Shown here: in pieces, positions 6,901 to 27,858 of the stretch
Layout: each line of letters begins with the position of its first letter
How positions within the stretch are numbered: position 1 is the first letter of the stretch
Assembly: GCA_949317995.1 (NCBI GenBank)
Contig: OX439051.1
Span: 36,645,250-36,709,249, forward strand
Source: Acholoe squamosa
Lineage: Eukaryota > Annelida > Polychaeta > Phyllodocida > Polynoidae
Direction of reading: 5' to 3'
DNA: 64,000 nucleotides
The notes under the pieces: model-generated
The model's input: the letters and a program-made list of their open reading frames with translations, nothing else
Database searches by the model: none
What the model was told of the DNA's origin: nothing
Made by a program: the position numbers and the translations under genes

Positions 6901-7411
6901 TCTGTGAGATGTAAAGACCCCTCATGGGTGTACCATTTACCATGTTGATCCATAATTATGTGTTGGGCATGTAATGCACTTTATAGAGTATCATTTTGGA
7001 TCTGCCTTCAGGAGAAAATCTCTCTGAATAAGATATCATGGTGCTGCCTAAACCTGCATATATGATTTATACAGTTCTCTCTTGGCAAAAGATCATTTTC
7101 CATTCTTCATAATAAGATGAAACACATTTTACTTGCCTGTTCTAGACCTCACATTCATAAACAGGCTCTGCCTGTTTCTCTCTGCCAACTGCTCCCATAG
7201 GGCTGTGATATATCAGCTGGTAGTGTCACTGCCTGCCACCTGGGCAGGAGATGATAAGTGATGACTCACGTACCAACTCTTTACTATGGTGAGCACTGCT
7301 TGTAGCAGTATTTTATCTTTTTTTACATTTTAGATTGGCTAAATATATTAATTTCATCACTGTTAGCACTTGTTTTATATTGCATATGTCTTTTTCCCAT
7401 CATCATACAAT
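3960..7411. other. No recognisable gene
   Basis: I see no coding region with family features. The stretch holds the CCAACAGT repeat at 5148-5222, a short AAAT microsatellite near 6068-6090, and AT-rich unique-looking DNA. Short open frames have no recognisable domain. Confidence 0.6.
5148..5222. repeat. Short direct repeats of TGTCCAACAGTGG
   Basis: GTCCAACAGTGG or a close variant occurs about four times within 75 bp, separated by GGAGT- and CCCAGG-type spacers. Inverted forms (CCACTGTTGG-like) lie nearby at about 5060 and 5285. Confidence 0.55.
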
Positions 7412-7632
7412 TGTAGTGGTCAGCGGAAAATGTCATGGAGAAACCGGGACTTGAACCCGGGACCCTCCAACTTCGAAGCGGCTGCTCTTCCTCTGAGCTA
7501 TTTCCCCTGGCCTGACATTCTCTACCTTCCAACTACCCTGGATCGGTATGGTATACATAGGGGGAGTGACAATATCAAGTGAACAGTCCCTCTGAAGGCT
7601 CTGCGCACCCGATGTGGGAACGAACCCCTACA
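7412..7632 (-). repeat. 3' LTR of the TRIM-like element
   Basis: It is 221 bp and the partner of 7880-8100. It is preceded in element orientation by the polypurine GGGAGGAG (7633-7640). It carries the better-preserved tRNA-like sequence at 7436-7507. Confidence 0.8.
7436..7507 (-). tRNA. tRNA-like gene inside LTR (cloverleaf with imperfect anticodon stem)
   Basis: The 72 nt fit the standard tRNA layout exactly (7-2-4-7-4-1-5-7-5-5-5-7-5-7-1). The acceptor stem GGGGAAA/TTTCTCC has seven pairs with one G-U. The D stem GCTC/GAGC has four pairs and the T stem CCGGG/CCCGG has five. The discriminator base is A. The A box (TAGCTCAGAGG) and B box (GGTTCAAGTCC) are both present, and a TTTT terminator follows five bases downstream (7427-7430). 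The anticodon stem pairs at only three of five positions. The loop TTCGAAG would give anticodon CGA, but without the long arm of tRNA-Ser. So it looks transcribable by Pol III but probably not a decoding tRNA. Identity is unresolved. Confidence 0.65.
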
Positions 7633-7640
7633 CTCCTCCC
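7633..7640 (-). other. Polypurine tract of the TRIM-like element
   Basis: On the minus strand GGGAGGAG sits directly before the TGTAG start of the 3' LTR, the usual place for the plus-strand primer. Confidence 0.65.
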
Positions 7641-7864
7641 AACCAGCTTCAACCGTATCCTGCCAGAACTGGTCCTCCAGTCCAGTCTGACTGGTACCAG
7701 CACTGAGTCACACACAGCATTCGGTAACTCCTGTTCCCAGGACCTACTGTGGGTGCCACCTGTTTCCAAGTCTCCCCAGCACTAGCAAGTTGAAGCGCTT
7801 GTCTATACCATACCGGTCCAGGTACTGAGCTCTCTAAAGGTCCCCCTTGCGAGGCAGGACCACT

Positions 7865-7878
7865 CGGTTTCTCCACCA
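7865..7878 (-). other. Primer-binding site matching the LTR-encoded tRNA
   Basis: On the minus strand this reads TGGTGGAGAAACCG, one base after the 5' LTR. It is complementary to 14 nt of the 3' end that the LTR tRNA would have after CCA addition: eleven encoded bases through the discriminator A, plus the CCA that the LTR does not encode. Matching the post-transcriptional CCA argues for a true PBS rather than a stray duplicate. Confidence 0.7.
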
Positions 7879-7879
7879 G

Positions 7880-8100
7880 TGTAGTGGTCAGCGGAAAATG
7901 TCATAGAGAAACCGGGACTCGAACCCGGGACCCTCCAACTTTGAAGCGGCTGCTCTTCCTCTGAGCTATTTCCCCTGGCCTGACATTCTCTACCTTCCAA
8001 CTACCCTGGATCGGTATGGTATACATAGGGGGAGTGACACAATCAAGTGAACAGTCCCTCTGAAGGCTCTGCGCACCCGACGGGGGAACGAACCCCTACA
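7880..8100 (-). repeat. 5' LTR of the TRIM-like element
   Basis: It is 221 bp, TG...CA bounded, and differs from 7412-7632 at about seven positions (about 3%). In element orientation it has roughly 125 nt of upstream sequence, the 72-nt tRNA-like body (7904-7975), then a short tail containing a TTTT run before the PBS. Confidence 0.8.
7904..7975 (-). tRNA. Second tRNA-like copy in the other LTR
   Basis: It has the same 72-nt layout as 7436-7507, with GGTTCGAGTCC as B box, closer to consensus. The last acceptor pair is lost (C72 to T) and the anticodon-loop reading is CAA instead of CGA. The loop is therefore not conserved between the two LTRs while the promoter boxes are. Confidence 0.55.
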
Positions 8101-8104
8101 CAAT

Positions 8105-13720: not shown

Positions 13721-14097
13721 TGTAAGGGTTTGTGGCCTTACGGACCTGGGGGGTTTGGGTCTTACGGTTCGAAAAGAAAGAGTAAGACAGTATTCCAAGT
13801 GTATGCCAACGGTTAGTTTTATTTCTTATTGTACACTCACGGCTGCCGGATGATGTCAAAGAGGCAGCTAATATTAAGGAATAATGGTTTACATGGTATG
13901 GAGGCCAGAAGGGCCTCTGACGTAGCGGCTGAGCCCTGGGCTTTATATACGGACCCAGGTGTTCGTCGTCAGATGTCCTCACAGACCCGGATCAGTGCTG
14001 CCACCTATCCGGAACCTGAGGAACATCCGACGACTCGACTCACCCGCCACGTCAGACAGTACCCAACTCCTATGGTTTAATAACGTGTACCTCTACA
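13721..14097 (-). repeat. 3' LTR of the Gypsy-type element
   Basis: It is 377 bp and the partner of 25924-26300. The TATA box is at 13943-13949 and the poly(A) signal at 13818-13823 on the minus strand. Confidence 0.92.
13818..13823 (-). terminator. Poly(A) signal in the 3' LTR
   Basis: AATAAA on the minus strand about 120 nt downstream of the LTR TATA box, a sensible place for the R/U5 end of the transcript. Confidence 0.55.
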
Positions 14098-14108
14098 CCA
14101 CTCCCCCA
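14098..14108 (-). other. Polypurine tract of the Gypsy-type element
   Basis: The minus strand reads TGGGGGAGTGG immediately before the 3' LTR start, as expected for the plus-strand primer. Confidence 0.65.
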
Positions 14109-15603
14109 GACATTTAGGAGGGTGTTATAGTTATAATAGTATTACTAGGATAACATTTCTACATGTCTAAACCTTTAGTAATAGAGGTACAACCATAGGT
14201 ATAACATTAACACCAGGTTAAGTATGAATCGAATGTCATATATATATATTCGATAGTGAATGTAGTTACAAATAACAATTAGGATGTTGAAATATTATAC
14301 GAATTACTTGAATAAGTGACAGTTGTGTGAAACGGAACTGTTAGTTAAATTACTATACCATATAATATCATATTATATCTACGGTATAATTAATAAGACA
14401 AGTAATATGAATCGTATACATGTGATAATGACAGTTATATGTAACGGAACTGTCGATAATAAATAAATCACATAATAACATCCGTATGTGTGTTTGTAGT
14501 TATTAACACCACATTTAAATATATAGTCTTGAAGAAGACTGTTATAGTAACTTCACTATATAATGACATGTCGTATATTATTAACATACAAATCCGTTAA
14601 GGATTCCATGAGTAGTACGAATAGGACCATTTATACCATACACTTGAAAAGAAAAGAAAAAAATCACGGTGTAGTAATGAATATAATAATAATATATTAT
14701 CACCGTGTACCTAATAACCTTTATAGCACCAGATCAATATACTTATTATACAATTTGTCTCGCAGGACAATAATGTGTGTTTTCTGGTGAAGTTTAACGG
14801 ATCTTATAATATGAATACCAATAATAATCAGAGATCCGTATCAAGAAATGTCTATGTACCCGTATCATAATATATATCTAGTGGATATGCACATACATAT
14901 AATATTATAGAAAAATAGAAATATGACATTATATACAATATACAGAAATTATAGATGCTGCTGGAGTCTTCTGCTGTAATCCTCTGGGTACTAGTAGGTA
15001 GGTGTGGTCAGCTAACCACGGGATGGACGTGCTAAAGTTTATGGTTTCCATATATAGAGTGAACACGGTAGATGAATTTGGGGCAGCTACCCACAATCCT
15101 CTAGTAGTGCTAAAGTTTATAAGTAAATCTGAATGGCGTAGAATGTAGAATAATAGTCCGGATGTGTCAACTATGTAGAAAACGTAATCCTTTTTTAAGT
15201 TTAGTTGACATAAGTAGAAAATAGTCCAGTATAGGTTGATCCGGAAGTAATAGTAGTAGTTGGTATAAGTCCATTCGGGAGTATAGATGAGTTGTAGAGG
15301 TAAATCGTAAAGTCCAGGAGTCTGGAACTGGTATCCGGATACGTCTCACAGCAGCAAGTCTACTATCGGATTGTTCATGGAAGAAGTTATAAATCCGAAT
15401 AGACTATTCAGGGTGCAATAAGGGTTATACAGCCTGAATTATACAATAGACTGGTCATAAGAGGAACCTGGAACACATACTATAGGTGTTCATACACTAG
15501 TGAAGAAAACATTCGCAGACCTACAGGGTTCCGCAAAGACTATATCTGGTTATTTGGTGATGGAGAAAAAAAAAAATTATGGGAGAAATAACCCGTAGCA
15601 TGC
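14109..15603 (-). other. AT-rich 3' untranslated region of the Gypsy element
   Basis: About 1.5 kb without coding signal lies between the extra ORF and the polypurine tract. It is much more AT-rich than the ORF. It contains the repeated hairpin motif at 14317-14453 and a CACGGTG...CACCGTG stem-loop at about 14665-14706. Confidence 0.65.
14317..14453. repeat. Duplicated hairpin motif in the element's 3' UTR
   Basis: TGACAGTT-(n)-AACGGAACTGT occurs at 14317-14342 and again at 14429-14453. Each copy can form an ACAGTT/AACTGT stem. Retention of the paired bases in both copies hints at a structural role. Confidence 0.5.
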
Positions 15604-15987
15604 TTAAGCGGATTTCTTAGCATGCTTCTTCTTAAGAAGAGCTAGAGCCGACTCGGGAGTGCCGTCCCACTCGTCCAAGTCGACTCCGAACACCCTCATG
15701 AACTTAGTGTTCAGGTTGGTGTTCCGAGTAATCTCCTCTTTTACACGTTTCTCCAGCACGTGTACATCCATAGCTGCCTTTTCTTGGGCAGCTGCGGCAG
15801 CCTCCTCCTGGGCCTTCACATCGTCCCGGATGAGGGTCTCGAGGCGCTGCTTTTCAGCATCCGCGACCTCCTTCATACACAACAGGGTGTCGTTTAGGAG
15901 ACCCTGATGGAACTCGGTCGCTTTTTCGCGAACATACTTCTCCCAGTGGGTGTAGATGGGCTTCTGGACATCTGCCTCCCTTGGCAA
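15604..15987 (-). CDS. Extra 3' ORF, C-terminal coiled-coil part
   Basis: It lies in the -1 frame from the middle part. About 127 residues are predicted, mostly helical: a THWEKYVREKATEF start, then a long Glu/Ala/Lys/Arg heptad stretch (EAAAAAQEKAAMDV, LEKRVKEEI). It ends in FMRVFGVDLDEWDG and a basic KKKHAKKSA tail. A coiled coil suggests oligomerisation. It has no convincing ATG of its own (the first codon is TTG), so it is most likely the natural end of the middle part. Confidence 0.65.
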   Translation of the reverse strand: MPREADVQKPIYTHWEKYVREKATEFHQGLLNDTLLCMKEVADAEKQRLETLIRDDVKAQEEAAAAAQEKAAMDVHVLEKRVKEEITRNTNLNTKFMRVFGVDLDEWDGTPESALALLKKKHAKKSA

Positions 15988-17408
15988 GATTTCTCAAACC
16001 AAACCTCCGCATTACCGGTTTTAATGGTAATAGCGTCCTTTGGTTTCGCAGGTGCAGCGACAGCCTTGGGAGGAGTCGATGCGGCCTGTGGACCACTTCC
16101 GGGTTCAGGGCTTCCGGACACACCTGCCGTTGGTACACAGTAGGCAGGTGGTGCGTTCTGTTTCAATCCCATTTGCAGGTACATGTTCAACTGCTCCTGG
16201 GTAAAGGTAACTGGTGGGGCGGCTGGAGCGGATGCAGATCCGGCGGCTGCAGATGCGGTGGTCTTCTTTGGCATAAGGCGACCATCCTTTCCTACCACCA
16301 AGGTCTGGCTCTCAGGTCCAGGTCCCTGGTTTAAGGACGGAAAGTTTCGAGAACTAACTTTCCCAGGCTTAGATACGGCTCCAGCGTATCCGGCAGGTTC
16401 GGGCTTCTTAAACACCGGAGTGCCCTGAGCCTGCTCTGCGGGGTGCCTAGCCAGAGGGGACCTGGAACGGTCCTCTGCTCTGACTTTCGGTTTAGTGGTG
16501 CCCTGACCATTACCGTTGCCGCCACGGTTCTGATCTCTCCTGCTCCTTTCACGAGCTCTCTTTGCATCCTTTCCGGATTCCTCGCATTTCTGCCAGAGAG
16601 ACTCGTGCATGTCCAGTTTACCCTTTCCAGGAGTCAGGACTATCTTTGCTCGGAGTTTCGAATCCTTGGTCTTCGGAACTTCGCAGAGGACTTGGTCCCC
16701 TGGTCGGATCTTAGACCAAGCATCCTCGCTCAGACTGTCGAACTCCTTCATGAGTTCCTGATGAAGCTCCATGATGCGCTTCCGTGCCCCGTCCAAACCT
16801 TCTGCGTGGCATTTCTTCTGGTGTCTAGCCAGATCACTACGTCGGTTGTATTGCACCTTCGTAGTACACTTCTTGCCCTTCTTACCATAACTCGGATCAC
16901 AAATGTAAACCGGGTGATGGTGGAAGTGGGCCTCTACCAGATGTCGTTGAAACCGGGCTGGAGTACTCCGGGTCCGGATCGTGACATCACTCGCATCCTG
17001 GCAGATAGAGAAGGGACAGGACTTTTGGTCGTCACCGTACCACTTCTCTAAAGCCCAACGCAGCTTCCTCCTCTGGGTATAAGTGTAATACCCTTCGGTG
17101 TGGTTTAGCATAAGCCACATCTTTCGATAGGCTTTGCTCGGATTGGGGTCCTCGTCCGAAAGACGCATCCAATCTTCATCGTCTGACTCATTGTTTTTGT
17201 TGACTGAGTCCGGGCAGGCATAGAGGGTAGAGCCGTCCTTCTTTACTCCGCACGCACAGTCGGAGAAGCACGTCGGAATCCGGGATTTGAATCCGGACTT
17301 GGCGTTAGCCCAGCGTTCGGCCTTGGTTTGAGTTGATGGAGTGGCCTTCTCATCATACTCAACCGAGGACTCGTGCACAGACTCCTCGTCAGACGATTCA
17401 ACCTCCAT
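15894..17408 (-). CDS. Extra 3' ORF, middle part with two atypical Cys/His fingers
   Basis: There is an ATG at 17408, but the frame is open and coding-like upstream to at least about 17640. From that ATG, finger 1 spans residues 131-161 (C-x4-C-x18-H-x4-H) and finger 2 spans 170-201 (C-x10-C, then H/C/H with RSDLARHQKKCH spacing). A Cys cluster at 47-65 may add a third metal site. Residues 275-300 are Arg/Lys-rich with an RERSRRDQNRGG tract. The rest is Pro/Ala/Gly-rich with a TFTQEQLNMYLQMGL helix. A nucleic-acid-binding role is inferred from fingers plus basic tract. It reads into the wrong frame at its 3' end, where a single-base loss near 15990 would explain the shift into 15604-15987. 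Confidence 0.7.
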   Translation of the reverse strand: MEVESSDEESVHESSVEYDEKATPSTQTKAERWANAKSGFKSRIPTCFSDCACGVKKDGSTLYACPDSVNKNNESDDEDWMRLSDEDPNPSKAYRKMWLMLNHTEGYYTYTQRRKLRWALEKWYGDDQKSCPFSICQDASDVTIRTRSTPARFQRHLVEAHFHHHPVYICDPSYGKKGKKCTTKVQYNRRSDLARHQKKCHAEGLDGARKRIMELHQELMKEFDSLSEDAWSKIRPGDQVLCEVPKTKDSKLRAKIVLTPGKGKLDMHESLWQKCEESGKDAKRARERSRRDQNRGGNGNGQGTTKPKVRAEDRSRSPLARHPAEQAQGTPVFKKPEPAGYAGAVSKPGKVSSRNFPSLNQGPGPESQTLVVGKDGRLMPKKTTASAAAGSASAPAAPPVTFTQEQLNMYLQMGLKQNAPPAYCVPTAGVSGSPEPGSGPQAASTPPKAVAAPAKPKDAITIKTGNAEVWFEKSCQGRQMSRSPSTPTGRSMFAKKRPSSIRVS

Positions 17409-17563
17409 GGCAGAACTACCAGTGGCTGAAGTGCTGGGTTTCGGCTCGGCTCTAGCAGAATCCGGGAGATTCTTAAGCTTCCGAGCAGCGGACCTTCGGT
17501 TCTTGCTGACCTTCCAGTCTTCCTCCGGTTCCTGGGTTCCGGATGCGCTGGAGGTCGAGGCTT

Positions 17564-18550
17564 CTACCTGTGTGGTAGTACTGCCGGTGGCTGGTGTAGC
17601 ATGGCTGAACTCCTGGTGGCAAGTTTCAGGTCGGGGATAGGAGGTGCGGGTACTTCCGCGGCCCTCTTAGCCTCTTCCTGAGCCTCCCGTTCGGCAGTCA
17701 TTCGGCGGACGAGAACCGTCCGAAGGGCTGCACCTCGGTCCAAACCGATTAGTGAACTGTTCTGGACGTCCACTAATTCTTGCTCGGTTATATAAATACC
17801 TTCATCCCACTGCTCGAAGTTAGCAGCGGCCTCCCGATATTCCTTTGTGGTCCGGTACTGGGGCCGGGTAGCACAAGGGCGTGGGTAAGTCTGCCCCTCG
17901 GAATCCGAGACGCAGCCTACCCAGTTAATGTTCGTAGCCTTGACGTTCCACAGGGACTTGTCAGGCTTCGGGTACGCTCCAAGCTCGAAGGCTCGGTTGG
18001 CTTCATACACTGTCTCGCGGAAGTCAGCGTCTACCATAAGTCCCCATTGGAACCACGGCCAGTCTCGAAGCCACTCGGGAGGCGTCCTGGTCAGCTGGTC
18101 GGGAACCATAACGCCCTCGACAGCTATCCTAACCTTCGGGTCCAACCTGACTGGTGTCCCGTCTGCGTAGGTCACTTGTGCCTGCAGTTCCGGGTGGACA
18201 TACAGGTAGCGACCATCGTACTCTACTGGGAACGGGTCAGCCACTACTGGCTTCCACTGGTCCTTCGAGTCGTCGACTTGTGTGGTCTCGGACTCTGTCG
18301 CTGCGGGTTTGGCACTCGCAGTCGCTCCGGATCCCTCTGGTGGGAGTGGAGATAACATCTTCTCTGGCTCATTTAGTGAAAATGAAGCCAGTTTCTCCTC
18401 GAACGAGCGATCCGTGGATTCCTCCATGTCCATCATCTCGCTCTCTTCCTGTGTAACAGGCGACAAAGCTTCTGGAAAAGCTTCTGCGGATGGAGTCAGC
18501 TTATCCGGGTCACCGAAAAGCTTGGCTGCAGCTACGGATTCCTCAGCCAT
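17564..18550 (-). CDS. Extra 3' ORF, N-terminal part (unknown, acidic)
   Basis: The open frame reaches 18568, but the first ATG is at 18550, so I start there. It is not env: I see no signal peptide, transmembrane segment or fusion-peptide-like stretch. The first 110 residues are acidic and Ser/Pro/Ala-rich. A tryptophan-rich globular region follows (PEWLRDWPWFQWGL, then LWNVKATNINWVGCV), then a Glu/Arg/Ala helical stretch near the end. At the 3' end the neighbouring -1 frame also stays open, so the protein probably once continued into 15894-17408. The family is unknown to me. GC content and CpG density are clearly higher than in the AT-rich flank at 14.1-15.6 kb. Confidence 0.7.
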   Translation of the reverse strand: MAEESVAAAKLFGDPDKLTPSAEAFPEALSPVTQEESEMMDMEESTDRSFEEKLASFSLNEPEKMLSPLPPEGSGATASAKPAATESETTQVDDSKDQWKPVVADPFPVEYDGRYLYVHPELQAQVTYADGTPVRLDPKVRIAVEGVMVPDQLTRTPPEWLRDWPWFQWGLMVDADFRETVYEANRAFELGAYPKPDKSLWNVKATNINWVGCVSDSEGQTYPRPCATRPQYRTTKEYREAAANFEQWDEGIYITEQELVDVQNSSLIGLDRGAALRTVLVRRMTAEREAQEEAKRAAEVPAPPIPDLKLATRSSAMLHQPPAVLPHR

Positions 18551-18850
18551 GACTGGGGAATCGCCCACGGGAGTAAAAACTACTCCTTTTTCTGGCTTTT
18601 ACGGCGCCGGGGCCGACACAAGCGGAGTCTGTCTACCAGGAGACAGACTCTGGAGGAGCAGCGAGGAGTTTGCTAGCCGGTAAAATCCAAGAAGGGAGCC
18701 AGCGCGACCGTCTTGGACGTTACCGAAAAACAATATGGTGACAGGCCAGCATTCGTGACGTCATTTCCCCGTTGCGCGCGGGGTCACGAGAGGTCAGCCG
18801 AGACTGGACACTGTGACGTCATGCGGAAACGCACGTGCTACAAGCGGTAC
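18551..18850 (-). promoter_or_regulatory. CpG-rich internal promoter-like segment before the extra ORF
   Basis: Between the integrase end and the extra ORF lies a CpG-rich stretch. It has two perfect palindromic CRE sites TGACGTCA (18756-18763 and 18814-18821, 58 bp apart) and an E-box CACGTG at 18832-18837. Two hairpins follow near the ORF start: GAGTCTGTCT/AGACAGACTC at 18625-18650 and GGAGTA/TACTCC at 18570-18586. No TATA box is obvious. The arrangement suggests a separate transcript for the downstream ORF. Promoter activity is inferred. Confidence 0.5.
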
Positions 18851-19060
18851 ATCAACAAACTGATTGTTTTTAGGTAATTATCGCTCACACCGATGACTCG
18901 TCTGGGGATTTAAGTGGAGATTATGGAAAGCTTAAGCAAATCCACCGGATTATCTGTCCACTACCCATTGGTACATCATGCGGCGGCGACAAATAAGCCT
19001 TTCGGGTCAGTTGTCATCCGTTCCTCTAAATGTAAACATTACACTCGTTGTGTATACAGG
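18851..19060. other. Spacer between integrase tail and internal promoter-like segment
   Basis: Noncoding, with no clear motif seen. Confidence 0.5.
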
Positions 19061-19576
19061 TTAGGTCACTGCAGTCCTCTGGGCAATTCGGGGGCTGCGG
19101 CGAACGTATCTCCCCTTCTCGGATAGTTCTTTATCGGACCTGACAGTCTGAAGAGCTTTCTCTAGATGCTTCTTAGCCTTAGAAACACCTTTCCTCTTCT
19201 TTTTGTCTTCACCTGCCGAGAATTTTTTAACTCCCCCACGCTTAATCGGTGTTGGCGTGGGTGTCACTGATTCGGAACACTTTTTAGGTCTACCACGACC
19301 ACGCTTCACTGTAGTGTTCTTTACCTGGTCTATTATGCGATTCTGGTTCAGGATCTTTCCGGAACCTTCACCATACATTTCTGTGGAGGTCTCCCTCCCA
19401 GACCATTTCCTTAATCTAGCCACATTAGACTTATAAAGTCGACCAAGGTCAGATTTGATAATTACGGTACAATCACTGATAACTTGTGTTATGGTGAAGG
19501 GACCATCCCAATTAGACGCTAATTTTATGTGTCTAAGTGGTTCATGTACTTGAATGTACCATACTGTTATAAGCAT
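19061..19576 (-). pseudogene. pol: Integrase C-terminal part with AT-hook-like tail
   Basis: It is in a third frame relative to the catalytic core. The WYIQVHEPLRHIKLASNW segment followed by DGPFTI is the GPY/F-like module found near the end of Gypsy integrases. A Lys/Arg-rich tail follows, containing KRGRGRPKK (residues 91-99), an AT-hook-type GRP core that may bind AT-rich DNA and steer targeting. I see no chromodomain. The junction with the catalytic core is deleted, so this is a relic. Confidence 0.75.
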
Positions 19577-20303
19577 GTGTCACGAAATGACACTGCTCAT
19601 CCCAGTCATCCATATGTTCATTAACGAGTGACTTTAGAACTTGGATGAGGGTTCTATTGAACCTTTCTACCAATCCGTCGCTCTGTGGCCTATACGGGTT
19701 GGTTCTAGTCTTGCAAATAGCTAAGTATTCGCACATACCCTGCCAGAGATTTGATTCAAACTCTCTGCCTTGGTCACTGTGTAACATTAATGGTACACCG
19801 AAACTTAGTACCCAACCTTTTACAAAGGCTTCGGCACAAGTAATTGCTTTGTGGTCCGGTAGTGGAAATACTTTAGTGTATTTCATATAATAATCACACA
19901 CTACCATCATACAGGTATTATCATTAGCGGTTGTATTAAATCCACTAATAATATCTACCCCGATTCTTGCGAATCTAACTCCGAAAAGTTCTTGGGATAG
20001 GGGAAGTTTGCCCATCCCGGGTCCGGGTTTGTTTTTACAACAATCCGGACAGGTGACTACCCATCTTTGCAAGTCCCGTGTCATGCCAGGCCAATAGTAT
20101 TTCTTGGAAAGTCGTGCTAACGAGCGTTTCCTTCCGAAATGACCACTGGTCCGATGTCCATGACAGAAGTACATAATGTCATGTCTCATAGCATGTGGTA
20201 TCACCACTTGCATGATTCTCTCACCATTATTACATGGCTTCCAACGGTATAACACGCCTTTCCGGACTTCAAGCTCGGTCCATTGAGCAAGAAACCTTCT
20301 CAT
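19542..20303 (-). pseudogene. pol: Integrase zinc-binding and catalytic core, truncated by deletion
   Basis: Integrase inserts the cDNA into the genome. From residue 1 at 20303, an HHCC domain is visible (His near 50 and 55, Cys 85 and 88, with KKYYWPGM between). The catalytic triad is Asp117 (GVDIIS), Asp177 (HSDQG) and Glu213 (GLVERFNR), with DX35E spacing. After the HAYNSMVHSS motif the frame stops at 19542. The following residues in another frame begin far downstream in the family alignment, at the GPY/F-like region, so about 80-100 residues appear deleted near 19550. The frame is open upstream to about 20340. Confidence 0.87.
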
Positions 20304-20649
20304 TTCTCGATTTTCCAGAGACCTCTGGTCTACCTGGACGTATACCCTTTGGTACCAATTGCAGTAGCTGCGCAGTTATCGAGTCAGCTTCCTGGAAATG
20401 TCGTATGTGATCCATAGACCAATCCAGTATACTGGCAACTAGGGGTACGAATGGTCTTCGAATCCCTGCTAACACTGCCCTATGAGCTCCACAATCAGTA
20501 CAATCCGGATTATCACATTTCCGAATTGGTATTCGAGACAAAGCATCAGCATTTAAATGCTTAACTCCGGGTCTATGCTGAATCTGTTGATGTTCAAGCC
20601 CATATTCGGATAAATGGGCTAGCCATCGGCCTAACATTCCTTCAGCATC
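20269..20649 (-). pseudogene. pol: Pol, end of RNase H and connection to integrase
   Basis: It continues pol in the same frame after the TGA at 20650, with the expected EGMLGRWLAHL and HRPGVKHLNADALSR motifs. The latter is the hallmark end of Gypsy RNase H. The frame then shifts by +1 (or -2) near 20303-20340 into the integrase frame. With stop and shift, the segment cannot be translated as a single Pol. Confidence 0.85.
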
Positions 20650-23040
20650 TCAGAAGTTCAGTAGCCACCTTAAAGAGGAGTGATCCGTACGTAAAGTAAA
20701 GTTCGTTCCCCATAGAAAATGTTTGAACTTCTTGGTATATACGACTACTGCTAACAACTCTCTTTTGGTTGTGCAGTAATTGCGCTGAGTCTTGCTCAGT
20801 GTGTTGCTGGCAAAGGCAATCGGTACTTCTCTCCCATTTTGGACTTGCGAGAGAGCTGCACCAATGCTATCATTACTAGCATCAGTATCCAGTATGAAAT
20901 GATCCGTTTCATTCGGATATTGCAATACAGGAGTACTCGTGAACAGGTTTTTTAGCTTTTGAAAAGCGGTTTCCTGTTCATGCGTCCAAGGAAATTTTTC
21001 CTTGGTACTTCCTGGAGTCCAGTTAGCTATTGCTTGTAATGGATAACTGACTCTAGAATAATTCGGAATAAATTCCCTGTAATAGGAACAGAATCCTAAA
21101 AAGGACCTCACTTCTTTGGGTGTTTTAGGTCTATTCCAATTCGTAACTGATTCGATTTTTTCCGGATCAGCCTTTATTCCTTCATCACTAATGATGCGGC
21201 CCAAATAATTTATGGACTTTCTAAACATGTGGCATTTCTTAGGTTTCAATTTGAGACTATTAGAAATAATACGTTCTAGTACCATTTTTAGGTTATTAGA
21301 ACACTCTTCGAATGTTTTTCCGAAGACTATGACATCGTCAAGATATACAAGACATCTTTTCCACAATAAATCACTTAGAATTGTTTCCATCATTGCTTCA
21401 AATGTTGCAGGTGCATTGCACAATCCAAACGGCATTACGTTATATTGGAATAGTCCAATATGACTCGAAAATGCAGTTTTCTCCATATCTGAAGGGTTCA
21501 TTCCCACTTGCCAATAACCTGATTGCAAGTCTAGGGTACAAAACCAACTGTTCCCTCCTAAGGAGTCAATGGTTTCGTCTATTCTCGGTAATGGATACGA
21601 ATTCTTTTTCGTTATTCCATTCAACTTCCTGTAGTCTATGCAAAAGCGGATAGTACCGTCTTTCTTTGTTACCATACACACAGGACTACTCCATGGACTA
21701 TTGGAAGGGACTATTACATCCTGTTCTAACATCTTGTTTATCTCATCTTCAGCTACTCTCTTTTTCGCTAAAGGTAACCGTCTATACGGTATCTTAAAGG
21801 GTGCAGCATCTCCAGTATCTATTTTATGTAATACCTTATTTGTCGTTCCTAGCTTTTCACCAGGTTTGGCAGAGGCATTATTATACTGACAGAGCATACC
21901 ATAGAACTCTTTCCGGTGTTCCGGATCTTCTAATGAAGTTTCTTCATACAACTTAAGTAAGTCTTCCGATATTTCATCATCTCCTGTTACCTTTTGTAAG
22001 CTTAGCTTACTATCCGTTACAGTTTCCGAAAGGGTCACGTTTCCAAAAACTTGTCCCTTTTTCAGGTAGATAGTAGTGTTTCCAGTATTGGAGACAGGTA
22101 CTACCGACCAGGATGCATTCGCTACTATCGTGTCTACAGAATCTAATCCGATACTTGACAAAGTAACTACATCCGGTTCTATCACTGCAGGTTTATTACG
22201 CATTTCAGGATCACTTCTTACAAGCACATCACAGGCTACTCCCGGGGGGATTCGCACAGTGTGTGCCACACTAGCCATACTGCTCACTTGTCTCAGTACA
22301 CATCTAACCTTTACGGGATACGGGTATCTCACACTCAACACTCCTGTTTGAGGTTCCAACACAGCACCATACAGGGATGCGAAATCCAACCCAAGTATCC
22401 CCTCATCTGCTATATCCGCAACGGTGGCGCTCATGACATAGTCATGTATACCATCCAACTGTAGTTTCACACAAGTTCTACCATACGTTTGCAAGGTACT
22501 GCCGTCGGCCGTCTGAGCACTTCCTCCCGATTTGAGAGTATCATGTTCATCCGGTATAAGATCGTAGAACCCCCTGGAGATACAAGAGTGGCTAGCTCCC
22601 GTATCCACAAGGAATTCGGCAGATCTTCCGTTAACAGTAAGGCAAACATACCACCGCCTTCCGTTTAGAACAGAGGGCATGTCCGTGACAATCGGAACGT
22701 CATTTTTCACACCAGGAGTCGATCCACATCCTTTCAGGAATTCCAGACAAGGATGACCCGGGGGCAGGTGGGCACCACAGACCTTGGCTAATTCATAGCC
22801 GCCTGCCTCGTTACTGATATTGGGTTTCCCCTGTGCTCCCATGGCACCTGTTATATCAGCTTCCCTAACCTTCCGGGTGTCTACAACCACCTCGGTGTTA
22901 GGCGATCTTGTTACTACATGTGAACTATCATCACGGATGGTGATATCATGGCAAGATTTGTCACTGGGATCCCCTTCTTTGCCCCTCGGGAGATCCCTTT
23001 CTAGTTTTCCTCTGTACTTATCCCAGAGACACCCTCCTGT
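20650..23040 (-). CDS. pol: Pol, protease-RT-RNase H part, ends at premature TGA
   Basis: This is the enzyme polyprotein of the element. Counting from the valine codon at 22890, the aspartic protease has DTGAS at 96-100 and an ILGLDF flap-side motif at 165-170. The RT runs from about 385 to 600 with FCIDYRKLN (416), the CTLDLQSGYWQ block with catalytic Asp (about 454) and YLDD at 516-519. RNase H follows with DTDAS (668-672), the TKRELLAVV glutamate (711) and TDH (735-737). The frame is uninterrupted up to a TGA where related elements have an arginine in the LLNFR segment, consistent with CGA to TGA decay. It has no ATG of its own near the overlap, so it should be expressed as a Gag-Pol fusion. 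Confidence 0.9.
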   Translation of the reverse strand, partial: TGGCLWDKYRGKLERDLPRGKEGDPSDKSCHDITIRDDSSHVVTRSPNTEVVVDTRKVREADITGAMGAQGKPNISNEAGGYELAKVCGAHLPPGHPCLEFLKGCGSTPGVKNDVPIVTDMPSVLNGRRWYVCLTVNGRSAEFLVDTGASHSCISRGFYDLIPDEHDTLKSGGSAQTADGSTLQTYGRTCVKLQLDGIHDYVMSATVADIADEGILGLDFASLYGAVLEPQTGVLSVRYPYPVKVRCVLRQVSSMASVAHTVRIPPGVACDVLVRSDPEMRNKPAVIEPDVVTLSSIGLDSVDTIVANASWSVVPVSNTGNTTIYLKKGQVFGNVTLSETVTDSKLSLQKVTGDDEISEDLLKLYEETSLEDPEHRKEFYGMLCQYNNASAKPGEKLGTTNKVLHKIDTGDAAPFKIPYRRLPLAKKRVAEDEINKMLEQDVIVPSNSPWSSPVCMVTKKDGTIRFCIDYRKLNGITKKNSYPLPRIDETIDSLGGNSWFCTLDLQSGYWQVGMNPSDMEKTAFSSHIGLFQYNVMPFGLCNAPATFEAMMETILSDLLWKRCLVYLDDVIVFGKTFEECSNNLKMVLERIISNSLKLKPKKCHMFRKSINYLGRIISDEGIKADPEKIESVTNWNRPKTPKEVRSFLGFCSYYREFIPNYSRVSYPLQAIANWTPGSTKEKFPWTHEQETAFQKLKNLFTSTPVLQYPNETDHFILDTDASNDSIGAALSQVQNGREVPIAFASNTLSKTQRNYCTTKRELLAVVVYTKKFKHFLWGTNFTLRTDHSSLRWLLNF

Positions 23041-25784
23041 TTACGCGGGACAGGCTTCTCAGCCATACATTCGGGAGCAAAATGCCCCAGTTTTTGGAAT
23101 CTGAAACATCTCCTTTGAGATTTGTCAACTCTTGGTCTCTTTAGAGCTTCTGTTAATCCGGCTATTAATGTTTCCATCATATTAGTCGGAGCAACAGTGG
23201 CTGCTACGGTTGGTTTCGCCGTAGAGGCTACACTGCCCGGTTGAGTTGATCCGGAAGCTGTTTTACCAGCGACAGATCCTCCTCTCCCTCTCGAATGAAC
23301 CTTCCTATACCGCTTTTGTCGGTAATACTTTCCAGCTATCTGGACTGAACCAATATATTTTCCGTTTTCATCGGAGATATAGTCATACTCCTCATCAGCT
23401 TCATTTGATTTAACCGGAGCTAACTGGGAAGTATCATATACCGGAGCAGGTGTACCTCCGTATTGGAATGGAGCTGCTCTTACTGGACTAGGTCCAAGAC
23501 CTACCAATCGTTTCTTCATGTCATGTCCATCAATTGCTATGAACAGGTCACTGAAGGAAGTGTCATCTTTCCAAGAATCCCAGACCACTTGCTTGTGATC
23601 CGGATCCCGCAATCCAGTGTAGAATTGTATAAACAATTCTTGTAGATAGCAATCATCGTCATGAGCCCAATTTGGACGTGCTTTTGAAAGCAAGTGCTGC
23701 AGCTCCAAACCAAAGACTTTGTGTGATTCCTTAGGTTTTTGTGTTCTCTTCTTGAAACTTACCCACGGATCTTCTCTAACGATTGATCCAAATAGGTATG
23801 CGGCACATTCTACCAATTGGTCATAGGTACCGTATAATCCGTAAGCTGCTCTCCATTGGTTGAGAGCTACTTTTCCGCCTTTATTTAACCAACAGATCAA
23901 ATATAGCAGAGCTTCTTCTTTTGTCCAGCCACTACAATTGACTTCGTCGACAAAAGCTTGATACCTGTCCTTCCATGGATCATTAGAATCATATGGAGGG
24001 GGTATCCGTGCCTGCCTACGTGCCGGATTATTACATCCGCGTAGTCTATCTGCTTCTCGCATGCTCCAGTTCATGACTTCCATGCCGTCTGCTCCCTTTC
24101 GGTAGCAGTCAATGCCAAGGTTTTGGATACATTGGCTCCTATCAAAGATGGTTTGCATCCCTGCAGGCATAGAAGTTCTCCTATTTGGCTTCCTGCCATC
24201 TCCTCCTGATCCTGATCCTCCGGATCCGGATCCTCCTGGGCCGCCTGGAGGATTTCCTCCTGGTGGACCATTATTATTATAGCTCCTGGATGAACCGCCA
24301 GAGCATCCACCACTGTAACCGGCGTTTCCAGAAGACGCATATCTAGGGTAAGAAATATTTTGATTCCATCCCTGGTTATAGCTATTACCATTTTGGTAAT
24401 TACCACTTCCTGATGGATTATAATTATTTCTATATCCATTGGAAGATGTTCTTGGTTGATACGTACCGCCATTAGCATTGTTTTGTGGCGGTTTTGGTCT
24501 TAGGAAACGTCCATCAGTAGGACCATTACCAGAACCCGGAGGTGGATTCGGTAATCTTGGCCCTGCTGGTGTACTGTGGCCGGGTTGGGGGAAATATGAA
24601 GGTGGTGTCAACATATGCCTCATTGGTCCGGGTGCTCTTGGTTGTGCCACGGGTGTATTGTTATTAGTCCCAGTAGCACCATCGTGAGTCGCTTTAATTT
24701 TGTGACTCAAATCTGGTATGGGTGGTGCCGGACCTATCGTATCCAGCATCGGGGTTGCTGGTTTAGGTGCAGTTCCATTTACTGCGGTATTATCCGGTTT
24801 CTTGTAGATTCCGGATACTACATTCTTGTCAGCCCCATCATAAACGAATGGGCTGTATCTAATTGGGGTTGCATCTTTGGATGTCTTTCCCAACATTGTA
24901 GATACCACAGCTGGATCTTTATTGCCTATAGTTAACTGGGCGGCTTCTACATATTTATCTAGAGTTATTGCAGTAGTCTGCAATTCCTGAAGCTCATTTG
25001 TGAGTTTCTGTCTATCCTCCTCCAATTGTTTATTGTAAGCTATAATGCCTACTCGGATGGTTTCATTGTCTTCAGCTTGTTTACTACACTGAAGTTTCAA
25101 TTTATCCAACTCGTCCTGATAATGGCGAATTTCGGATTCGAATTTTGCCTTATCAAGGTTTAATTGGTCGTTCGTATCTATGTATGTTTGGATACGAATG
25201 TGCCTATTATCATATTCCTTGTTGAATGATTCTCTCATGGAATGAAGTTTTAATTCTTCATTCTCGAGTTCCTTCATGTACTCACTCCTTCTGGCTTCGA
25301 ATTCCTTTCGCATGCCGGTTAGGTCTTCTTCCAACTGAAGTTTTTCATGGAATACTTCGTCTTTAGCTTTGACCAAGGTATTTAGGTTCTCGTTCAAAGT
25401 TACATAAGTTTCATTCAACAACAGGATATCCGGTCGTTTGAATTCCTCACCTTCCGGTACCGCATAGGTTAAGTCGCCATCTATAGCGCTGTAATCTAAT
25501 ATTGGTAATTCGGGCCTGGGTAATCTATAAGGTAGTTCTCCGAATGTTACCCTTTTTGGCATTGGTGCCGGATGTTCTGGGTTAGTACTACCACCAACTT
25601 CGAACATCGAATTACTTAACTCGTCAACAAGTGATTGTTGGCCTATTAAGTTACTCTGTCTCTGTATAGACTGTTCGCGTCGTACAGAGTCTGGCAGATT
25701 CTCCTCACTATCATTATAGTGGGGTCCGGGATCTCTCCAAGATGCAGATTCCGCATCTTGCGAGTTTGAATGGGTTTGGAGCAT
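23001..25784 (-). CDS. gag: Gag, very long, coiled-coil, with defective zinc knuckle
   Basis: This encodes the structural protein that would package element RNA. The frame is open from 25898, but the first ATG is at 25784, giving about 927 residues against 300-500 usual for Gypsy gags. Counting from 25898, residues 160-325 form a strong heptad coiled coil rich in Glu/Lys/Leu. About 400-640 is Pro/Gly/Asn-rich low complexity. About 650-830 looks like a capsid region, with tryptophan-rich helices and a LYLICWLNKGG stretch. A CCHC-type knuckle sits at 931-944 (CFRF....GH....C), where the second cysteine is phenylalanine. The ORF ends at TAG 23001-23003, overlapping pol in the -1 frame. It is unbroken, unlike pol. 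Confidence 0.85.
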   Translation of the reverse strand: MLQTHSNSQDAESASWRDPGPHYNDSEENLPDSVRREQSIQRQSNLIGQQSLVDELSNSMFEVGGSTNPEHPAPMPKRVTFGELPYRLPRPELPILDYSAIDGDLTYAVPEGEEFKRPDILLLNETYVTLNENLNTLVKAKDEVFHEKLQLEEDLTGMRKEFEARRSEYMKELENEELKLHSMRESFNKEYDNRHIRIQTYIDTNDQLNLDKAKFESEIRHYQDELDKLKLQCSKQAEDNETIRVGIIAYNKQLEEDRQKLTNELQELQTTAITLDKYVEAAQLTIGNKDPAVVSTMLGKTSKDATPIRYSPFVYDGADKNVVSGIYKKPDNTAVNGTAPKPATPMLDTIGPAPPIPDLSHKIKATHDGATGTNNNTPVAQPRAPGPMRHMLTPPSYFPQPGHSTPAGPRLPNPPPGSGNGPTDGRFLRPKPPQNNANGGTYQPRTSSNGYRNNYNPSGSGNYQNGNSYNQGWNQNISYPRYASSGNAGYSGGCSGGSSRSYNNNGPPGGNPPGGPGGSGSGGSGSGGDGRKPNRRTSMPAGMQTIFDRSQCIQNLGIDCYRKGADGMEVMNWSMREADRLRGCNNPARRQARIPPPYDSNDPWKDRYQAFVDEVNCSGWTKEEALLYLICWLNKGGKVALNQWRAAYGLYGTYDQLVECAAYLFGSIVREDPWVSFKKRTQKPKESHKVFGLELQHLLSKARPNWAHDDDCYLQELFIQFYTGLRDPDHKQVVWDSWKDDTSFSDLFIAIDGHDMKKRLVGLGPSPVRAAPFQYGGTPAPVYDTSQLAPVKSNEADEEYDYISDENGKYIGSVQIAGKYYRQKRYRKVHSRGRGGSVAGKTASGSTQPGSVASTAKPTVAATVAPTNMMETLIAGLTEALKRPRVDKSQRRCFRFQKLGHFAPECMAEKPVPRKQEGVSGISTEEN
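23004..23040 (-). other. Gag-pol overlap, candidate -1 frameshift window
   Basis: The pol frame is -1 relative to gag and is open only from 23040, just after an in-frame TAA, while gag stops at 23003. Any frameshift must occur within these 37 nt. The heptamer G-GAA-AAC at 23004-23010 directly precedes the gag stop. It is not a classical XXXYYYZ site, so the mechanism is uncertain. Confidence 0.5.
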
Positions 25785-25910
25785 TAATGATCCATTTCCA
25801 TTCTCTTGGGCAATCGATTGCCCTGCTGGGTTAGCTTCCCTGAGGGTGTCTAACCCATGTACCAGCCGTTCGGACGTTATAACGTCCGGGCTATACACCA
25901 GAATTAACTG

Positions 25911-25922
25911 GTCACGGCACCA
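25911..25922 (-). other. Primer-binding site, tRNA-His type
   Basis: On the minus strand TGGTGCCGTGAC starts one base after the 5' LTR. Its complement GTCACGGCACCA is the 3' end of animal tRNA-His as I know it, so histidine tRNA is the likely minus-strand primer. Confidence 0.7.
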
Positions 25923-25923
25923 G

Positions 25924-26300
25924 TGTAAGGGTTTGTGGCCTTACGGACCTGGGGGGTTCGGGTCTTACGGTTCGAAAAGAAAGAGTAAGACAGTATTCCA
26001 AGTGTATGCCAACGGTTAGTTTTATTTCTTATTGTACACTCACGGCTGCCGGATGATGTCAAAGAGGCAGCTAATATTAAGGAATAATGGTTTACATGGT
26101 GTGGAGGCCAGAAGGGCCTCTGACGTAGCGGCTGAGCCCTGGGCTTTATATACGGACCCAGGTGTTCGTCGTCAGATGTCCCCACAGACCCGGATCAGTG
26201 CTGCCACCTATCCGGAACCTGAGGAACGTCCGACAACTCGACTCACCCGCCACGTCAGACGGTACCCAACTCCTATGGTTTAATAACGTGTACCTCTACA
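25924..26300 (-). repeat. 5' LTR of the Gypsy-type element
   Basis: It is 377 bp, starting TGTAGAGGTACACG in element orientation and ending CCTTACA. It contains a TATATAA box (26146-26152), TGACGT half-sites on both sides of it, and an AATAAA (26021-26026). It differs from the other LTR at six transitions (98.4% identical). Confidence 0.92.
26146..26152 (-). promoter_or_regulatory. TATA box of the 5' LTR
   Basis: TATATAA on the minus strand in U3, with a TGACGTGG CRE-like half-site about 100 bp upstream and another TGACGT (opposite strand) about 25 bp downstream. It would drive the genomic RNA. Confidence 0.65.
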
Positions 26301-26951: not shown

Positions 26952-27858
26952 TGTTGGGTTCCATTATGTCCACTCATTCCGATGTATCCACCAGATCCTT
27001 AATTCCATTTTGTCCACCATCTTTTTTCCGAAATGTCTGCCAAAATTTACTTATTCCATTGTGTCCACCAAGTTTTGTTCCAAAACACCCACAAAAAGTT
27101 CCAAATTCCATTTTGTCCACCAGTTCATACAGGTTCCAAAATGTCCACCAAAAGTGTCAAAATTCCACTGTGTCCACCAGCTCTTGTTAAAAAATATCCG
27201 CAAAAATGTCAAAATTCCATTGTGTCCACCAGGTTTTGTTCTGAAACATCCACAAAAAGTTCTAAATTCCATTTTGTCCACCAGTTTTTGGTTCAATATG
27301 TCCATCAAAAGTTGTCAGATTCCATTCTATCCACCAGCTCTTGTTCCAAAATGTCCGTAAAATATATTATGTCCAAATTGCATTGTGTCCCTAGGTTTTG
27401 TTCCAAAATGTCCGCTAACAGTTCCAAAGGCCATTCTGTCCACTGGGTTTAGTTCAAAATTATCCACAAAAATGCCCAGATGCCATTGTGTCCACCAGGT
27501 TTTGTTCTGAAACATCCGCAATAAGTTCCAAATTCCACTTTGTCCGCAAGCATTTGTTCCAAAATGTCTGCAAAATTGTCCACATTCCATTGTGTCCAAA
27601 ATGTCCACTAACAGTGGCTATTTCTGTTTTGTCCATCAAGCTTTATTCCAAAATGTCTGCAAATTCCATTTTGTCCCCAATCTTTTGTTCCAAAAACGTC
27701 CGCTAAATTCACTCTGTCTGCAAATGTTCAGATGCCATTCTGTCCAACAAAATTTGTTCTGAAATGTCTTCCAATTCCATTGTCAGCCAGGTTCTCTTCT
27801 AAAAATGAATTGATATCTGGCCTAAGTGGTTGAAATGGTCTGATTTTGTTTAACATAG
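26952..27858 (+). repeat. Left arm: roughly 52-bp minisatellite, about 16 diverged units
   Basis: Units have the form ATTCCATTNTGTCCACCAG, then TTTTGTTCCAAAATGTCC, then RCAAAAAGTTCCAA. Their spacing is mostly 50-56 bp, and later units are shorter. Confidence 0.8.

Follow-up and report, generated by a model that had tools for sequence, protein, structure and literature searches.

A tRNA encoded in the LTRs of a Helenus-like miniature element of Acholoe squamosa is matched by the element's primer-binding site and may serve the element as primer

Can a miniature LTR element provide the tRNA that primes its own reverse transcription? To our knowledge, the known tRNA-primed LTR elements all borrow a host tRNA. 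The question is raised by a stretch of 64,000 nucleotides of the polychaete Acholoe squamosa (the window), in which a non-coding element carries a tRNA-like sequence in each LTR and a primer-binding site (PBS) complementary to the 3' end of that sequence plus CCA. Here we describe the element, its copies in the host genome and the relation between LTR tRNA and PBS, and weigh the possible explanations of this relation.

The element is a complete miniature LTR element (TRIM) of 689 bp on the minus strand of the window (7412-8100), and all features of the element given below are on that strand. Its 5' LTR (7880-8100) and 3' LTR (7412-7632) are each 221 bp long, the 5' LTR running TGTAG...CTACA, and differ at 7 positions (96.8% identity). 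The insertion is flanked by the target-site duplication (TSD) CAAT, at 8101-8104 and 7408-7411. A single spacer base (7879) separates the 5' LTR from the PBS TGGTGGAGAAACCG (7865-7878), which is followed by a non-coding internal region (7641-7864) and the polypurine tract (PPT) GGGAGGAG (7633-7640). Both LTRs contain a tRNA-like 72-mer recognized by ARAGORN and by Rfam RF00005, for which the gathering score is 29 bits. The copy in the 3' LTR (7436-7507, 50.3 bits) has the acceptor end TTTCTCCA and the copy in the 5' LTR (7904-7975, 48.7 bits) has TTTCTCTA, with one base altered. The A box TAGCTCAGAGG (7958-7968) and the B box GGTTCGAGTCC (7915-7925) of the 5' LTR were assigned by reading the sequence against the box consensus. 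Just 3' of the 5'-LTR tRNA lies TTTT, a putative Pol III terminator (7895-7898), and TTTT is also found just 3' of the 3'-LTR tRNA (7427-7430). An earlier note on this DNA had reported 221-bp LTRs, a CAAT duplication, a PPT and a TGG-initiated PBS, with a 72-nt tRNA-shaped sequence, A box, B box and TTTT in each LTR; all of these are present, on the minus strand.

This anatomy is that of Helenus (TRIMp3), the name given by Kojima 2024 to TRIMs with a tRNA in the LTR, animal members of which have a 4-bp TSD and are mobilised by Gypsy elements (PMC10886601). The window element is shorter than 1000 bp and lacks coding capacity (no ORF of at least 120 aa was found within its 689 bp), bears in each LTR a tRNA-derived sequence that includes an A box and a B box, carries a PBS and a PPT between them and has the 4-bp TSD CAAT. 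The 5S rRNA that marks Cassandra and Ajax is absent, tRNA being the only family above the Rfam gathering score between window positions 7000 and 8600. The earlier note knew of no tRNA analogue of Cassandra, which does not hold since Helenus is one (PMC10886601); the new part concerns priming. Kojima 2024 weighed self-priming and set it aside, as complementarity between LTR tRNA and PBS was not found and the PBSs fit host tRNAs (PMC10886601). By its anatomy the window element belongs to Helenus, but its PBS-tRNA complementarity is an exception: its family has a match of 13-14 nt between PBS and LTR tRNA (18 in one copy) that changes together with the LTR tRNA.

The PBS TGGTGGAGAAACCG pairs at 14/14 positions with the 3'-terminal 11 nt of the 3'-LTR tRNA plus CCA. 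In the 5'-LTR tRNA of the same insertion a single acceptor base is altered (TCTCTA) and pairing falls to 13/14, so that the complementarity over 14 nt including CCA that had been claimed is complete for the 3'-LTR copy and one position short for the 5'-LTR copy. The sequence TGGTGGAGANACC occurs once in the window and in none of 100 shuffles, and the PBS type that we call A is present in all seven other window-similar copies fetched (L002-L008). The shuffles and this recurrence together argue that the match is not due to chance. Six of these seven copies match their own 5'-LTR tRNA at 14/14 positions and the remaining one at 12/14. In nearly all copies the complementarity ends at 13-14 nt, and nucleotides 15-18 are not tRNA-like. 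In one copy of a second type, B (L021, junction at 1136), the PBS fits the LTR tRNA-Ala over exactly 18 nt, stopping before position 58, while most other B copies have a 14-nt match.

Copies of the element were sought in 1.48 Gb of host genome. At least 46 matches to the full-length query were found, including that of the window itself, with 40 of 3,281 first-look candidates scored. A search for the tRNA family, in which the best 63 of 97,417 candidates were scored, gave 30 top-scoring loci that were fetched; they are of type B, and in all 30 the central tRNA lies inside an LTR and none is free-standing. Element lengths are mostly 688 bp in type A, 707 bp in type B and 770 bp in type D. Among 57 delimited copies the median identity of the LTR pair is 98.8%, 13 copies reach at least 99.5%, and 39 have a perfect 4-bp TSD; the boundaries of some of the 57 are misassigned in tandem or rearranged copies, the source of the lowest identity (52.4%). 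Judging from LTR-pair identity and TSD state, this is a TRIM family that has been active recently.

Some copies have unusual arrangements. Two loci (L079 and L088) are tandem copies of the form LTR-interior-LTR-interior-LTR, and at G000:C1:2995620-3026006 one LTR tRNA family repeats partly at steps of about 7.07 kb, like a tandem array. In L077 (minus strand, junction at 997) and L051 (plus strand, junction at 1511) the 5'-LTR tRNA is lost and inverted PBS and internal sequence stand in its place, while the 3'-LTR tRNA is kept; foldback copying at the repeat of PBS and tRNA seems to have produced this arrangement. In L100 (junction at 1011) the 5' LTR is without a tRNA and the 3' LTR has one.

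If the LTR tRNA and the PBS are functionally paired, they may be expected to change together, and the earlier note had proposed looking for such co-variation across subfamilies. Type A elements combine the LTR tRNA end TTTCTCCA with the PBS TGGTGGAGAAACC and type B elements combine TGTCTCCA with TGGTGGAGACACC, while the LTR tRNA of type C ends in TATCTCCA. The three types differ at tRNA position 67, and nucleotide 10 of the PBS is the complement in each (A, C and T, respectively). Our main sample (L039-L108) comes from contig C1 and was chosen only by an LTR end plus TGG; of 1,183 such places in the genome 100 were listed, 24 of them belonging to an unrelated AATGG repeat and left out, and the other 76 were fetched. 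They gave 49 recognisable junctions, with LTR tRNA and PBS types A/A in 33, B/B in 13 and C/C, A/C and A/B in one each, an agreement of 47/49. Eight further tRNA-bearing junctions had no recognisable PBS and were dropped, among them L086, which has a type-A PBS minus its first bases. Once copies selected for their similarity to the window or for their tRNA score are pooled with this sample (9 junctions dropped in total), the types match in 72/75 junctions and complementarity is complete (14/14) in 53/75. We excluded another 14 junctions in which no tRNA was recognised, 7 of them in the AATGG repeat and the others rearranged, mutated or chance occurrences. The expected co-variation was found by type, and free divergence of PBS and tRNA end, which would have spoken against the earlier reading, was not seen: the three mismatched junctions (L026, L052 and L083) are mosaics of LTR tRNA type and PBS type. 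Support for C/C comes from a single junction with a mutated tRNA (L049), which fits its PBS at 12/14 positions where host tRNA-Ala fits at 13/14.

The change at position 67 is also seen on the opposite strand of the acceptor stem. Among 145 distinct LTR tRNA places, one of which is of no type, the pair 6-67 is A-T in 80/83 of type A, T-G in 57/57 of type B and T-A in 4/4 of type C. Fisher p values for the co-variation overstate its significance, as copies are related by descent; given this shared descent, the copies represent a small number of independent changes (A, B, C and a type E described below), each of them matched on three strands. Five further elements were chosen by the tRNA end TTTCTCCA and an LTR-like spacing with the PBS ignored (5 fetched of 20 picked). 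They have other LTR ends (CCGACC[T/C]CTACA) and other trailers, yet the PBS is TGGTGGAGAAACC in 5/5, the match stopping at nucleotide 13 in two of them. The PBS is complementary to the end of the LTR tRNA, and the two co-vary.

Additional tRNA types allowed the PBS to be predicted in advance. A search for LTR-type tRNAs with a base other than T at position 66 returned 114 places (15 in the reversed control), for 54 of which the letters were seen. At least six tRNAs among these 54 end in AAACTCCA (the rarer type E), which predicts the PBS TGGTGGAGTTTC, and we searched for this PBS 0-2 nt behind an LTR ending in TACA. The predicted junction occurs 4 times genome-wide compared with 6 times in the reversed control. 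Three of the 4 lie at an LTR-type tRNA match, on the correct strand and at the spacing of the element, and the chance of three such placements is about 4e-13 under random placement. Two of them precede a type-E tRNA of the 3' LTR by 403 and 379 nt (427 nt in the window element), and the third lies 11 nt behind a tRNA motif, as in the window element (11 nt); type E was read only for the tRNAs of the former two. The fourth junction has no LTR-type tRNA neighbour. For 4 of the 6 visible type-E tRNAs there is no predicted junction nearby, and these may be solo or mutated LTRs. The corresponding predictions failed for type F (5 matches, 16 in the control) and type G (8 matches, 9 in the control), with no match beside the tRNAs, and we rejected both types as further supporting families since their predicted own PBS was not found above the reversed control. 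Repeats that are tRNA-like and have a TTTT trailer were noted for type F at C2:42258952 and C1:1423302 and for type G at G000:C2:38390075, C6:34283269 and C8:14221771. Types F and G may be SINEs, other repeats or elements primed otherwise.

We then compared the PBS with host tRNAs. A tRNA-Ala-like end pattern was found at 29 genome places (14 in the reversed control). Thirteen of these end in GGCATCTCCA within varied flanks and were taken for host tRNA-Ala genes. Another 11 end in TTTCTCCA and have trailers that are alike, from which they look like one more LTR family; the other 5 are of neither kind. Host tRNA-Ala (CATCTCCA) fits the type-A PBS at 12/14 and 13/18 positions, compared with 14/14 and 15/18 for the 3'-LTR tRNA, and a PBS fitting host tRNA-Ala would read TGGTGGAGATGCC. 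Of the 49 junctions of the main sample, 46 have a PBS that fits the element's own LTR tRNA better than host tRNA-Ala, two are ties and one (L049) fits host tRNA-Ala better. A T-arm followed by TTTCTCCA and then by a base other than T occurs at 2,724 genome places (2 in the reversed control), and no free-standing host tRNA gene with this end was seen among the roughly 100 that were listed. A host tRNA fitting the PBS better than the LTR sequence, named in the earlier note as evidence against self-priming, was not found in this non-exhaustive search, the fit of tRNA-Ala being 12/14.

The first bases of the PBS and the structure of the LTR tRNA give further indications. TGG stands at the start of the PBS in 28/28 junctions that were not chosen on it (23 in L001-L038 and 5 in L109-L113). 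The base separating it from the LTR is variable. Where loci had been selected for a TGG elsewhere in them, 50/52 junctions carry TGG at this position and 2/52 do not. The CCA to which this TGG is complementary is absent from the LTR DNA behind the tRNA, and the keeping of TGG without a partner in LTR DNA favours a CCA-ended tRNA over a hairpin. Over 79 distinct sequences the acceptor stem, which lies outside both promoter boxes, is paired at 96.7% in type A and 99.4% in type B, and the D and T stems are also kept. The anticodon stem is loose in the same sequences (71-73% paired, for B partly due to simple numbering) and is broken in type A. The pair G3:U70 is kept in 83/83 of type A, 57/57 of type B and 4/4 of type C; G3:U70 is the alanine identity pair. 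TTTT is found within 16 nt behind the tRNA and ahead of the PBS in 144/145 distinct LTR tRNA places, so that Pol III transcription from the 5' LTR would be expected to yield mostly pre-tRNA.

From these sequence features we consider it likely that this is a non-autonomous LTR element of the Helenus kind whose LTR tRNA is transcribed, tailed with CCA and used as the element's own minus-strand primer. Pol III would read the A and B boxes and terminate at the TTTT that follows the tRNA, and the resulting short pre-tRNA would be trimmed by RNase P and RNase Z and given its CCA by a host enzyme; the acceptor and T stems that these enzymes read are kept. The 3' end of the tRNA would then anneal, either in cis or in trans, to the PBS of a genomic RNA belonging to the family. 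Reverse transcriptase and integrase would come from a helper that is probably a Gypsy element making 4-bp duplications. The LTR tRNA appears to have drifted from host tRNA-Ala with the PBS following, which would make the primer pair now largely private to the element. The earlier suggestion of a self-supplied primer gains from the co-variation of PBS and tRNA end and from the poorer fit of tRNA-Ala, and loses from the failed predictions for types F and G.

How the match is maintained may depend on the helper. A retroviral progeny PBS may be copied from the primer, according to part of the text of PMC4549124, but for Ty1 and Ty3 a portion of PMC7472051 gives the RNA as the source of the PBS. 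With a Gypsy-like helper, it must be selection for annealing that maintains the match, and such selection suits a 13-14-nt match with an unrelated remainder. The 18-nt match of L021 suggests what primer copying up to position 58 would leave, as a single case. Capture of the primer by read-through copying was rejected as an origin of the LTR tRNA, as it would give an antisense tRNA and the LTR tRNA is here in sense.

Three other explanations have to be weighed against self-priming by an LTR-encoded tRNA. The element could be an ordinary Helenus, with the LTR tRNA only a Pol III promoter, the PBS primed by host tRNA-Ala and the likeness of the two due to common descent from tRNA-Ala. The A and B boxes are present, host tRNA-Ala shares 12/14 PBS positions, and the promoter role is the one preferred by Kojima 2024 (PMC10886601). 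We nevertheless regard this as unlikely, since the PBS tracks the LTR tRNA where the latter leaves host tRNA-Ala (in types A and B, and by prediction in E) and since the acceptor stem, outside the promoter boxes, remains paired through these changes. A genomic RNA made by Pol III from the 5' LTR would, moreover, be cut short at the TTTT before the PBS unless this terminator were leaky.

Somewhat less likely still is a hairpin, either regulatory or self-priming in the manner of Tf1, in which the 3' strand of the LTR tRNA pairs in cis with the PBS and no separate tRNA is made. The two 11-nt arms are about 28 nt apart and are paired in the predicted folds of L002 and L021, though the predicted fold of L013 differs, and the rearranged 5' LTRs of L051 and L077, with inverted PBS and internal sequence, are what foldback copying would leave. 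A hairpin does not need the TGG found in 28/28 junctions not chosen on it, which is without an LTR-DNA partner and for which a CCA-ended tRNA would account. We give the least credence, as improbable, to a PBS used by some undetected host tRNA that shares the 3' end and from which the LTR tRNA was captured. A lone gene of this kind could hide among the 2,724 T-arm places, of which about 100 were listed, and 11/29 tRNA-Ala-like places do end in TTTCTCCA. The trailers of these 11 resemble one another, whereas the 13 places ending in GGCATCTCCA differ in their flanks, and all but five of the listed T-arm places have, by eye, a TTTT trailer, with many LTR-spaced pairs among them. All 30 fetched top-scoring type-B loci are in LTRs, and a separate host tRNA would be needed for each of A, B and E.

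The window also contains a Gypsy element (13721-26300, minus strand) with 377-bp LTRs (TGTAG...TTACA) that are 99% alike over the 300 nt compared, a TSD of TGAG and the PBS TGGTGCCGTGACC, which we take to fit tRNA-His. It encodes protease, RT, RNase H and integrase domains, the integrase core scoring below the Pfam cut-off. This PBS differs from that of the TRIM and the element was rejected as a specific helper, yet it indicates that Gypsy elements with a 4-bp TSD are present in the host. A repeat containing AATGGTAGAGG was likewise rejected as a helper or relative, as no tRNA adjoins it and L042 and L045 show tandem repeats and no LTR pair. These two loci and similar ones belong to an abundant near-identical repeat sharing the 11-mer TGACCACTACA, which 88- and 44-bp tandem repeats adjoin in L042 and L045. 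A tandem repeat region with steps of mostly 52 bp lies at 26996-27620 of the window.

Other systems share single aspects of the window family. Tf1 primes with the 5' end of its own transcript, and is similar in that the element RNA provides its own primer; the window family implies a CCA-ended tRNA instead. Tf1 and Tf2 are named as self-priming in part of PMC6934838. Cassandra, a TRIM with 5S RNA, and Ajax are also miniature LTR elements with a small-RNA gene in their LTRs, but the gene is 5S and not tRNA, and the primer of Ajax is reported as tRNA-Leu (PMC10886601). In cqgypsy_1 of Culex, tRNA sequences are likewise found at the LTR/PBS boundary; there a single Osvaldo-like element has two CCA-bearing tRNAs placed head to head, and the available portion of that article claims no match between PBS and LTR tRNA (PMC3286476). 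Another parallel is man-made: in an MLV vector described by Lund 1997, as cited in a passage of PMC3185771, an artificial PBS was complemented by an engineered tRNA-like primer. On our reading, both systems pair a private tRNA-like primer with a PBS fitting no natural tRNA; the vector's primer is supplied in trans, whereas the window family is natural and its tRNA lies inside the LTR. Within titles and abstract openings of literature on tRNA genes in LTRs and self-made primers, including few subscription journals, we found no claim of an LTR-encoded primer tRNA.

With slightly more reserve than for self-priming itself, we think it probable that the family represents a natural orthogonal primer system, in which a dedicated LTR tRNA, shared in trans by thousands of copies, has diverged from tRNA-Ala together with the PBS. 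The elements would thereby be freed from the host tRNA and perhaps from silencing by 3'-tRNA fragments. Such silencing of the PBS by host 3'-tRNA fragments is described as a defence in part of the text of PMC7472051, and a private primer could be a possible route round it. LTR tRNAs in such large numbers inflate tRNA gene counts. If our reading is true, the family is an exception to the published negative statement on Helenus and a natural counterpart of engineered primer/PBS pairs. It would also explain the paired acceptor stem and the close terminator of the LTR tRNA genes, which are needless for a bare promoter, and would mean that the choice of primer can be internalised by an element.
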